Assembly (NCBI RefSeq): GCF_036373705.1
Contig: NC_089851.1
Coordinates: 2,697,920-2,761,919 of the forward strand
DNA length: 64,000 bases
Origin: Amia ocellicauda
Lineage: Eukaryota > Chordata > Actinopteri > Amiiformes > Amiidae
Reading direction: 5' to 3'
Position 1 is the first letter of the stretch, and each line of letters opens with the position of its first letter. Shown one piece after another: positions 34,639 through 40,600 of the stretch. The position numbers were made by a program, and so were the translations under genes. The notes below the pieces were generated by a model, which worked only from the letters and a program-made list of their open reading frames with translations, ran no database searches and was not told where the DNA came from.

Positions 34639-37600
34639 TCAGATGTCGTGCGCCTGCTTGTCGATTTTGCATTTCAAGTGCTCTTTGTACGCCAAGATGT
34701 CCCTGTTCCACTTTGTGATGGTTTGCTTCTCACATACCCAGATTTCCTGAGCCACCTGCACCAGAGAGAGTAATCAATTAGTGACCGTCCCTTTGAACAA
34801 TTTTAACTGGAGTCCAGTTGTGAGCTGCAGTAAGGAGTCTAGGGACACAGCGATCAGATTAACGCTTCGGTCAGATTTTATCAAGGCACCGTTTGCGCCA
34901 AGAACATCGTGCTTGACAACAGCGCTATAATTCGGCCTTTTGTTAACATCACGTCACAGCCGTGTCCCTGAGCCCTGTGTGGAAGACCGGGGGCAGAAAA
35001 GATTTAACCTCCCCCCCAACAACATCCTTAAAAACAACCTAGTCTCCTCTCATGGCTTGGTTTCAAGGAAAGCTTTTCAAAACATAGATAAGGCTACGAT
35101 TTAAAGAAACCAAATGAGAACAGGATAATAGCCAAGACCACTCCGCTCACCTGCTGAATCAACCTGAAGTCGTGGCTGACCAGCATCATGCCCCCCTCGT
35201 ACTCGTTGATGGCGTCCGCCAGTGCGTCAATCGTCTCAATGTCCAAGTGATTGGTGGGCTCGTCCAGGAAAAGCATGTGGGCGTTCTGCCAGGCCAGCCA
35301 GGCAAAGCAAACCCGACACTTCTGCCCGTCCGAGAGGTTTCTGATGGGGCTCACCTGTTGGGGGGGGGGGGGGGGATGGAAAAAGTTAGTCAATTATCGG
35401 TTAAAAGTAGAGGAAGGTGTCGAATGGCCAACGCGGCCCCGTCTAACTATTACTGCAGGCACTGCTACCAGTTTCCGTTACACTGCTGAGAGTGGAGGCA
35501 AAGCCGAGGCCGATTTCACCTTCGCCCATTTCCAATTAAAGGATCAGCTTTCCTGTGGCAGCAGCTGCAGCCGCAGGGACTGATCTTTTCAACGGCACTA
35601 CCACCCAGCCTCACGAGAAGAGATTGCACAGGGGTATCAGGTTTCCCCGACAGAGGAATTCGCCAAACTAAACGAGCCACTTTCTATGAAGTCAACCAAT
35701 TCAGGGTCATTTGAGGGTAAAATACCAACACTGCACTTCATAAAGCACTTTTTTTTTTTTTTTTTAAGCAATCTTTTACCATTTAGTGCTCTTCACTTCC
35801 ATTTAGTGAAAACCCACAATGCATTTGCTGCAACTGGATAGAAAGAGCTTTACACAAATCTAAAATCTTCCGCAACAGAAAGTCCACACTACTTTAACAT
35901 TAATTGTTGCCGTGGAAATCAAGTGCATTAAAATAGTCTCTACAAATCCAACCCCACAACTTATAGATATTCAAAACAGAATATCCAGCCAAACTTCTAC
36001 AGAAAGCAAAGATGTAGAAGCCAGAGTGGTCTAATCAGAGCCTCAACCTAATTCCAGATGTGTGGCACAGCTTGAAGATTGCCGTCCATCAGCACTCCCC
36101 GAGGAAACTGGCAGAGCCTTAACAGTCTTGTAAAGAATGGCCACAAATATTGACACATCTAGGCGTGTCAAGTTGGTAGAGATTGATGCCAAAAGACTCG
36201 CACAGATGCAATTTCTGCCAAAGGCGCTTCCACCAAATATTAACTTGGGGGAGGTGGGAGCCTCATCCACTTATGATAGTTTTCCAGATTTGTATTTTTT
36301 TTATACAATTTCACAAAACCTTTGGCGTGTAGATAAGTGGGGGGCGGATATTATAATTGCAAGTGAAAATAAGCTCCGTGGGTGTGGGCTTTCTACTAGG
36401 CCCGTCTGCCTGCATCTCACACCGGCCTGGTCTCTGCCACGGGACACTTGCCTGCTGTTTCCCAGTGAGCCCGTAGCGACCGATGATCTTCCTCATCTCC
36501 TCTTTCTCCTTGATGTCCGGGTAGCACTTCATCATGTACTCCAGAGGAGACAGGTCGAGCTCCAGCTGCTCTGTTAAATGCTACAAAAAGACAGGATTGC
36601 AAGTGTATGAGATGTCAAGGAAGTAAGTTCTAACCATTAGTCAACCAACACTGCATAGCAGCCAGTGACTAAGGTTTAAACTAACAGACATTTCCCTTAA
36701 TCAGTAAACTGTACAGTTTAGTTTGGACACCATATAGGCATCAATATTGTGAACCTACACGTCTCCAAAACCGGTGGCTAAGTAAGTCTGAAGAGAAGCT
36801 AACTGGCAGTTAACAGCAAGACAAACAGAGGGCTTGAGGGGACTGTCAGTTTTAAACATTTTCTGAAGTGCGAGAACATGACTTAAGAGCGGTCTGCATA
36901 GCTTGCAACTGTCTCTTATCCTTTTGTGGAGCACACCAGATCCGTACTTAAGACTACTCCACATACCTGATGGTATCTGCCAATCTTGACGTGAGAATGC
37001 TTCCTGATCATGCCGTCAGTCGGAAGAAGCTGGAGAGAGAAAACACCCCGCAACACGATGAGCGACAGACAGGGGTTTCAGTGCTTTTGCGGGTTTGGGT
37101 TTGTACACCGGACGTAATGGAAGGAAACCAGGATAAAGATAATAGAAGTTATTTTAAAGTGGCTGTTTGTGCAGCAGTTCTGGACCTTTAAAATATCAAT
37201 AGCCAGATTGTATGCATCAATGTTACTTGGAATATATATTGGGAAATGTATATAAAAGGTCAAAAAAAAAAAACACATATATATATATATACACATTATA
37301 TATATATAAAAAAAAAAACACGTTACCTCTCCAGTTAGTCGAGTCAACATTACTTCCCTACAGAAGTTAAAGGGGACTATAGTGACCATCCCTTTGAACA
37401 ATTTTTGTGAGCTGCAGTAAGGAGTCCAGGGACACGGCGAGCGGATCAGATTAACGCTTCGGTCAGATTTTATCATGGCACCGACTGCGCCAAGAACATC
37501 GTGCTTGACAACAGCGCTATAATTCGGCCTTTTGTTAACATCACGTCACAGCCGTGTCCCTGAGCCCAGTGCAAAAGACTGAGGGCAGAAAAAAGATTAA

Positions 37601-40600
37601 CCTCCCGCCCCAACAACATCCTTAAAAACAACCCAGTCTCCTCTCATGGCTTGGTTTTGAGGAATTAAATTGATAGAGCTTTTCGTGGCTTGGCCTCCCT
37701 ATCCCGACACCATTTCACAGTTGCATTTACTTTGCTAATAAACCAAAGGTACAACAATTAGTTCCCCCTACATGACAACACCAAACGTGGCACCGCAGCA
37801 CCACCTAGCTGCCACATGAGGAATTGCCTAGAGGTCTGAAATTAGGATCTCACACCAGTAGGGGGATCCACAAGAGACTGGTACACCAGTCGGGTTTTCC
37901 AGCATATAGAACAAAAGCTACGGTTAAAACATGGTAAAAGTGTGAATTTACCTCTCCCGTTAGCAGCTTCAGCAGCGTTGACTTTCCCGCACCATTGGGG
38001 CCCACCAGGGCCACTCGGGTATCCAAGTCAATGCCAAACTCCAAATTCTTGTAGATATGAGGCTGTTAAAGAAAAAACAGCTTTTAGACCGGGGCTCTCT
38101 GCACACTCCACTCAACTGAACAATACAGAAGCCAACGTCGCAAGTTTAGCACTATCAGAGACTGACAGCTTAGCGGAAAGACGAGCAGCCGTGTCACCTT
38201 CACTCAACAGAATCAAGAGGTCAGAGTAGCAGGAGAAGTGAAATGGTAGACTTACCCCGTCGTCCGAGTACTTAAAGCTAACATTCTGAACCATGATAAC
38301 CGGAGGAGGGATCTTCCCACAGGGAGGAAAAACGAATGACAGGGTCTGCAAGAGGAGAGAATACGTTAGATGCACATTCGGCATTGAGAACCTCCCTGGC
38401 CATGGTGTCCCCTGGTTTTCGTTCCACCCCAGATCTTGAAGTGACACAAACTAACCATTTCCCTGAATGAGAAGTCCTCTGCAGGCTTTACCCTGTAGGT
38501 CACTGAAACGCATAAGAAAGGCAACTCCAGGCTGGATGACCATCCCACAGAAATGAGTCCTTTATTTACATGTGGAAAACCAGTCCCCACCCCCCCGTTG
38601 TAGGGCAGAGTGGGCGGACACGGCCAATGGATCAGAAACGCTTCGGTCAGATTTTATCACAGCACCAGTTGCACCGAGAATGAACTGCTTGGCAACGGCG
38701 CTATAATTCGGCCTTTTGTTAACATCACGCCACAGCCGTGTCCCTGGGCCCACTGTGGAAGACCTGGGGCAAAGAAGGGAAGACTATTCTTCCGGAATAA
38801 GCTCTAAAAGTCCTGACAAGTCAGACAGCTTGGGTCATCTCATCCAAATAACCATCTTTACCAACCCCCATTAGATTAACTTTGCTTGAAACAGTTTCTA
38901 AACTCAATATTTCCCAACAGATCAATCTAGTATTACTTAAATTTACACAAGTTTTGCAGGCATCACTTCACACCCTTACCTTGTCACTCACTACGCGCTC
39001 AGTCAAGCCAGACGCCACCATTTTCTGTAAGGTCTTCTCCTTACTCTGCGCTTGTCTAGCCAGCTTAGCAGAACCGTGTCCAAACCGTGCAATGTAGTTC
39101 TGTGGAGCACACAAGTGGAATGAATGGACGGTACAGAAGACTAGGGATACGTCCGATTGTGGAATTCTATTCTTCAGTCATGGAAAAATAGACACATTAT
39201 AGCGGATGTTTCTATAGAGAGAAGTGTGCAATAAGCATTCGGATCTTTGAAATAGAACGAGAGGATTGAATACAGTAGGAGGGGCAGTGGCAACCAAAGC
39301 AAGGGCCTCCACCAGGTGGCAGCATTTACCTTCATGTGTGTGATCTGGTCCTGCTCCCAGTTGTAACGTTTCATCTGATTTTCTTCCAGTTCCAGCCTGG
39401 TCTTCACATACTGATCGTAGTTACCCTTCAAATAAAAAGACACCAATTAGTCCTCACAACACAGACCCATCGCTTCAGACTAAGAGGTACGGCTAAAGGA
39501 GTGTACCGGTGCTTACCGTGTAGTACTTGAGCTTCCTCTGATGCAGGTGGATGATGTTGGTGCAGACCCCATTGAGGAAGTCCTGGGAGTGGGATATGAG
39601 AACCAGGATTCGCTTAAACCTGTTGGACAATAAGATGCCAAAATTACATTTCTACACTTCTAGATGAAGCCATTAACTCAACCTCCAGAACGCAGCTTTA
39701 ACAGACTAACGTGACTGTCCCCTTGAGCAATCTCATGTAAACTAAAGTCCAGTTGTGAGCTGCAGTAAGGAGTCTAGGGACACAGCGATCAGATTAACGC
39801 TTCGGTCAGATTTTATCAAGGCACCGTTTGCGCCAAGAACATTGTGCTTGACAACGGAGCTATAATTCGGCCTTTTGTTAACATCATGTCACAGCCGTGT
39901 CCCTTAGCCCACTGTGGAAGAGCAGGGGCAGAGAAGGGATGAAGCTTCCACCCCCTCCCCCAACATCCATCAATAAAATTCAGTCTTCAGTCAAATAAAA
40001 CCGGTATATTTTTAAATAGTTTGTTCGTTTTTAAAGGGGCTCAAGCACCAGAGGCAAGCAGCGAGTGAGCAATGGGACGGCAACACACACAATCCCCACG
40101 TTTCTCTTCCCGTTCAAAGATTCAGTCATTACACAAATGTAACAATTAAAGTATTAGAACATGCCAGTGTCAAGATCCTCATTCAAACCCTGACAAATCA
40201 CAGTGATGCAGACTCACGTAGACAGCTCCTCCTCCAGCCACACGCAGGCATCCAGGTCCAGGTGGTTTGTGGGCTCATCCAGCAACAGCATGAAGGGTTT
40301 AATAAATAGTGCTCTGGGGACGAGATGAAGCAGCCCGGGCTTAACACTGTGCTCAGACACCCGTGCCGTGGGCTATACAACACGGCAACACAGTACTACC
40401 ATCTAAAACAGCCCTACACGCATGTTAATTAAGACCACAGGGGCGCTGCGAGTGGGTCAGCTCAAACGCTTCGGTCCATTTTTGTCATTGCGCCGCCGCA
40501 CTGTGAACATACTGCTCGGCGGCGGCACTGTCATTCGGCCTTTTGTCACATCACTCCCACTGGCAGACGCCCTCAGCCTCAGACCACAGATAAGCCGTAT

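Follow-up and report, generated by a model that had tools for sequence, protein, structure and literature searches.

Why would a single gene carry a similar unit in each of five introns, every time in the orientation of the transcript? The question is raised by an abcf2-like gene of Amia ocellicauda, which lies in a window of 64,000 nucleotides (nt) (NCBI RefSeq assembly GCF_036373705.1, contig NC_089851.1, positions 2,697,920 to 2,761,919, forward strand; positions below are those of the window). Our analysis suggests that the five units, named A to E, form an array of SNORD89-type box C/D guide RNAs for U2 small nuclear RNA (snRNA), with 2'-O-methylation of G12 (Gm12) as the main product, a second antisense block in an accessory role, and intragenic duplication as the origin of the copies. 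To this reading as a whole we assign a probability of roughly 0.85.

Anatomy of the five units

The units and their host gene are located as follows.

34639..42538, minus strand: abcf2-like host gene, start codon to stop, with 14 coding exons in the splice model
34854..34952, minus strand: unit A, C box to D box, in coding intron 13 (34756-35150); C box GTGATGT 34946-34952, block 1 34932-34942, block 2 34863-34868, D box 34854-34857
37446..37544, minus strand: unit B, C box to D box, in coding intron 10 (37030-37951); block 1 37524-37534, block 2 37455-37460, D box 37446-37449
38632..38728, minus strand: unit C, C box to D box, in coding intron 8 (38346-38979); block 1 38708-38718, block 2 38639-38644, D box 38632-38635
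39789..39887, minus strand: unit D, C box to D box, in coding intron 5 (39620-40217); C box ATGATGT, block 1 39867-39877, block 2 39798-39803, D box 39789-39792
40457..40554, minus strand: unit E, the most diverged, C box to D box, in coding intron 4 (40314-40774); block 1 40535-40545, block 2 40467-40472, D box 40457-40460

The splice model places units E, D, C, B and A in coding introns 4, 5, 8, 10 and 13, respectively, one per intron and all in sense; given a non-coding first exon, this numbering would shift by one. Every unit has a C box-like RUGAUGU, equal to the box C/D consensus RUGAUGA at six of seven positions, a CUGA D box, a terminal stem, and two blocks, block 1 (CAAAAGGCCGA) and block 2 (GAAGCG), both identical in all five. 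From C box to D box the units measure 97-99 nt, and the intervals folded with their stems 136-144 nt. The original prediction, made from the letters of the window, had described just such an arrangement: five sense units of roughly 130 nt in introns 4, 5, 8, 10 and 13, with these boxes, a terminal stem and two invariant blocks. All of this is borne out here.

The terminal stems form predicted duplexes of -25.4 to -32.5 kcal/mol, a strength that was reached by 2 to 8 of 2,000 control pairs (mean -8.4, sd 4.0) drawn from the abcf2 gene itself, units included. The stem of unit E differs in sequence from those of A-D, yet it pairs; its own two strands reach -31.2 kcal/mol, against -17.6 to -25.1 when they are combined with the flanks of A-D. 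In their boxes and terminal stem the five units agree with box C/D RNAs, and a stable, protein-bound RNA is their putative product.

Identity as SNORD89 homologues

No match is found in the window when Rfam is scanned at gathering score. The default scan passes over the units because they score below the threshold of 41 bits set for RF00578 (SNORD89), which is a listing cut-off and not a biological feature. In a sensitive scan of 34700-40700 (E up to 10) nine matches are listed, and SNORD89 is the best for each of the five units (minus strand, model positions 1-114 each; 31.2, 29.0, 26.1, 21.5 and 21.4 bits). Aligned with the SNORD89 consensus, the units give z values of 6.8-8.4, and none of 2,000 shuffles equals the score of any of them. 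A shared 12-mer alone might explain such scores; as a control it was therefore placed into 2,000 random pieces of the window. These score 40.7 on average and 68.5 at most, compared with 70, 72, 78, 74 and 79.5 for units A-E. Judged by sequence, the five units are homologues of SNORD89, a known box C/D RNA. The original prediction was right to see intron-encoded RNAs of the box C/D kind, but its word "undescribed" does not hold: the RNA has known relatives, and its invariant blocks are complementary to U2. As the alignment also illustrates, both U2-complementary blocks, the C and D boxes and the stem are kept between the units and the SNORD89 consensus.

Predicted pairing with U2 snRNA

The U2 sequence was taken from the same genome (988 Mb searched; counts from all genome searches are lower bounds). 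Among 46 matches listed, 12 were fetched and read on one strand each, and 6 of the 12 show, on that strand, the 5' end that U2 should have. In all five units, block 1 complements U2 nt 9-19 with 11 Watson-Crick pairs and block 2 complements nt 3-8, so that the two contacts follow each other in antisense order with no gap. The SNORD89 consensus is complementary to U2 nt 9-18 and 2-8. Within the window, the 11-nt U2 complement occurs at 19 positions (both strands, some overlapping), and the adjoining 6-mer is also present at five of the 19, which are the five units. Both elements together appeared in 3 of 100,000 dinucleotide shuffles.

Block 1 and U2 are predicted to form a duplex of -19.7 kcal/mol; folded by themselves, the first 31 nt of U2 reach -8.2. 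Block 1 is also more open than the average of its unit in every case (0.48-0.73 versus 0.33-0.36); block 2 is so in four of five units, with a tiny margin in A.

Block 1 spans both G11 and G12 of U2, and the assignment to Gm12 is taken from the literature: the modification listing of a 2021 review names SNORD89 as the Gm12 guide, with fibrillarin, and scaRNA2 for Gm11, and places Gm12 in the set of 5'-end modifications that splicing activity requires (PMC7960923, in excerpt). The listing of a 2011 paper carries SNORD89 without a target (PMC3349704, in excerpt). With block 2, this family acquires a second element for which a definite, testable U2 partner can be named.

The U2 matches fall into two forms. 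Of the 46 listed, 41 are of a 175-bit form (24 on contig C144, 17 on C166) and 5 of a 192-bit form on C18 (C18:25815566-26109467); the fetched places, L020-L031, are spread over these three contigs. When one U2 of each form is compared, the 3' part differs.

Guide geometry and alternative readings

According to the model that we favour, the units would be excised from the abcf2 introns as SNORD89-type box C/D RNAs, whose C/D motif and terminal stem would serve to bind the C/D proteins. The U2 5' end would then be paired with block 1 over nt 9-19 and with block 2 over nt 3-8. Block 1 would direct 2'-O-methylation of G12 as the main product in Amia ocellicauda, block 2 would serve as an accessory clamp, and repeated duplication inside the gene would have built up the array, possibly for reasons of dosage. 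The distance between block 2 and the D box varies (5, 5, 3, 5 and 6 nt in A-E), which argues against a fixed-distance D guide; an accessory clamp is the more likely role of the block.

Several observations weigh against this model, and they concern the boxes, the homology and the pairing alike. The C box of the units ends in U. The D boxes lie 98, 416, 286, 169 and 143 nt from the 3' splice site in A-E, and the typical distance for intronic box C/D RNAs is 70-90 nt. Under the D'-guide rule, by which the D' box places the target at its fifth base, no CUGA stands at the place that would select G12; it reads UUAU in A-D and UGAC in E. The SNORD89 consensus has UUGC there, so the lack is common to the known family, and the guide would be atypical in both. 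All five units stay under the gathering score, for which reason we call them SNORD89-type homologues and not listed members of RF00578. The Rfam alignments keep the D boxes of A, D and E in register, while those of B and C come out displaced. The whole-genome SNORD89 search, which scored 46 of 55,751 candidates, returned four rows, three of them units A, D and B (E 0.15, 0.53 and 2.96), and it missed C and E. At E up to 10, SNORD89 also appears below the cut-off in 3 of 14 control genomes. Given these control matches, the missed units and the small share of candidates scored, the search could have overlooked a diverged copy at another place, and its E-values alone are weak. On the side of U2, the 11-nt match by itself occurs in 373 of 100,000 dinucleotide shuffles and in 3 of 1,000 mononucleotide shuffles of unit A. 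The constraint on the core must be read with similar care: among A-D, 0 of 45 core columns (boxes and blocks) are variable compared with 34 of 100 others (Fisher p 4e-7), but the core columns were picked after the alignment had been seen and unit E was excluded. The fourth row of the whole-genome search, on contig C27, was rejected on reading, since it is without a C box.

The 5'-end strand of U2 is used by U6 in U2/U6 helix II, and the letters of block 2 are those of what we take to be the U6 strand of this helix. SNORD89-type RNAs might be mainly clamps or chaperones of the U2 5' end and not methylation guides: both blocks would hold U2 nt 3-19, open stem I and occupy the strand used by U6, a contact by which U2 folding, or pairing with U6 before its time, could be controlled. 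The contiguous bipartite contact, common to all five units and the SNORD89 consensus, is in line with such a role, as are the varying position of block 2 relative to the D box, the D' consensus not found in the units, and the difference of predicted energy between the block 1/U2 duplex and U2 alone. Accessory pairing, however, occurs in ordinary methylation guides as well, and we consider a clamp in place of a guide unlikely. We hold just as little expectation for a combined scheme, in which the RNAs would clamp the first 19 nt of U2 through two contacts and join Gm12 methylation with the control of U2 folding, and block 2, as a copy of the U6 helix II strand, would keep U6 off until the U2 5' end is finished. 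If it were true, the array would couple the supply of this clamp to the expression of a translation-related ABC-F gene. In favour of a guide, the excerpted review assigns SNORD89 to Gm12 together with fibrillarin (PMC7960923).

It is also conceivable, if improbable, that not all copies work, some being dead paralogues of a functional SNORD89. The distances of 416 nt (unit B) and 286 nt (unit C) to the 3' splice site would speak for it. Against this, boxes, terminal stem and both U2 elements are intact in all five units, including E, the most diverged, which keeps them despite its changed stem.

Two other roles were considered by eye and dropped, namely acetylation guidance at helix 34 in the manner of snR4, and pairing with the 5' end of U5 or U6. 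The exact 18S 3'-end pattern has 0 matches in the genome. A search for 5.8S listed one similar match (L017 1501-1654, C23:29422320-29422473; 39 of 18,329 candidates scored); no small- or large-subunit ribosomal RNA was found at gathering score around it in two overlapping 10-kb stretches, and no ribosomal DNA unit came up in these searches.

Probable duplication within the gene and the search for copies elsewhere

Long similarities surround the units, two of them around unit A.

34779..35088, minus strand: duplicated stretch around unit A, 85% identical to 37380-37677 (around B)
34781-35052, minus strand: duplicated stretch around unit A, 84% identical to 39711-39993 (around D)

The long flanks common to A, B and D, already recognized in the original prediction, extend over 317 columns at 85% for A/B, 283 at 84% for A/D and 365 at 72% for B/D. 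Unit C shares a shorter flank (A/C, 193 columns at 79%), and E has little in common with the others beyond the unit itself (143-179 columns at 64-71%). This gradient fits serial intragenic duplication. The five-unit array is consistent with spread by repeated events of this kind, and unit E may be the oldest copy.

Duplication inside the gene had been proposed in preference to transposition, with many further copies across the genome as the finding that would speak for a transposon. No such copies are listed. Unit A as DNA query of the genome gives four places, which are A-D, and unit E gives three, which are E, C and B. The pattern TGATG-5N-AAAAGGCCGAAT with at most one mismatch occurs at seven places, A-D exactly and three elsewhere with one mismatch (two for the reversed control). 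Neither kind of search lists a copy of the unit outside abcf2, and a model built from the five units finds no sixth in the window, the five being recovered by construction. A young repeat or transposon that came to lie in abcf2 by chance could leave copies with long shared flanks; it would hardly leave five of five in sense, one per intron, with invariant boxes and blocks and complementarity to U2. Without a copy listed elsewhere in the 988 Mb, a transposon or short interspersed element was rejected, and we regard this explanation as very nearly negligible.

Among the three one-mismatch places, the one near position 1511 of L013 (C4:45535462) scores 44.5, a value that 633 of 2,000 grafted controls reach, and is attributed to chance. 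This place carries AAAAGGCCGAAT in sense in an intron of a gene that, by eye, is LSM14-like. This was the one place aligned; L014 and L015, the other two, were given a brief look.

The host gene and its surroundings

The host gene, built from splice sites and reading frame, has a single open frame across its 14 coding exons. As many as 240 splice combinations keep this frame open, 12 of the 240 being listed, and small splice choices remain; the version used here encodes 612 amino acids. The predicted protein is an ABC-F protein whose best match of solved structure is ARB1 (6r84, E 4.6e-177), which fits the name abcf2 given in the original prediction. A search for paralogues lists 16 matches, 11 in the gene itself and 5 weaker ones on contigs C7 and C21.

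All five unit-bearing introns are GT-AG. Coding intron 12 apparently uses a GC donor (CAG/GCAAGT, 36446-36452; GC-AG in the splice version used). In coding intron 10, a 27-nt stretch (37323-37349) looks like the last part of coding exon 10 together with the donor site that follows, a likeness equalled by 5 of 1,000 shuffles; it is perhaps the relic of a duplicated exon end. Upstream of abcf2 lies an open frame of 231 amino acids (45574-46269, plus strand) that by eye resembles the reverse transcriptase of a long interspersed element.

Comparison with known systems

The RNA kind itself is known; new to us are its five copies, the abcf2 host and the contiguous bipartite contact with U2. Judged by their listings, none of the papers found in our literature search connects SNORD89 with abcf2 introns; this host may already be in print. 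According to an excerpt of one report, human SNORD89 (HBII-289) has RNF149 as its host (PMC12152556). The likeness to SNORD89 extends from the C box, followed at about the same offset by AAAAGGCCGA, over a C'-like UGAYAAAA (by eye) and GAAGCG to the D box and the terminal stem, and it includes complementarity to the same U2 segment. The differences are the five copies, the host abcf2 in place of RNF149, and the letters after GAAGCG, which are UU in the abcf2 units and AAC in SNORD89. With an RNF149 sequence as probe (23 exon matches listed), the array model finds 0 matches in 80 kb of eight stretches at the three best RNF149-like loci, each a candidate for rnf149. The SNORD89 model gives no row at E up to 2 in seven of the eight stretches, a scan too insensitive for copies that match as weakly as C and E do.

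A partial view of the literature on acetylation guides (PMC5464676) describes snR4, snR45 and U13 as having two separate antisense elements on one target stretch. The abcf2 units are similarly box C/D RNAs with two antisense elements that meet on one target, leaving a helix between them. In contrast to those guides, the elements of the units meet on U2 without a gap, the first element stands after and not before the C box, and no acetylation site is implied.

Multiple copies of box C/D RNAs have precedents. SNORD87 is given as four genes each in Xenopus and zebrafish and one in human (PMC3349704), and the copies of chicken C/D RNAs as spread chiefly by intragenic duplication (PMC2653536), in the excerpted parts of both papers. 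Several copies in non-placental vertebrates, and for chicken the way in which they spread, are shared with the abcf2 array; the RNAs, the targets and the hosts are different ones. A five-copy array in a host other than that of the human gene suggests that the SNORD89 guide moved or multiplied in vertebrate evolution.

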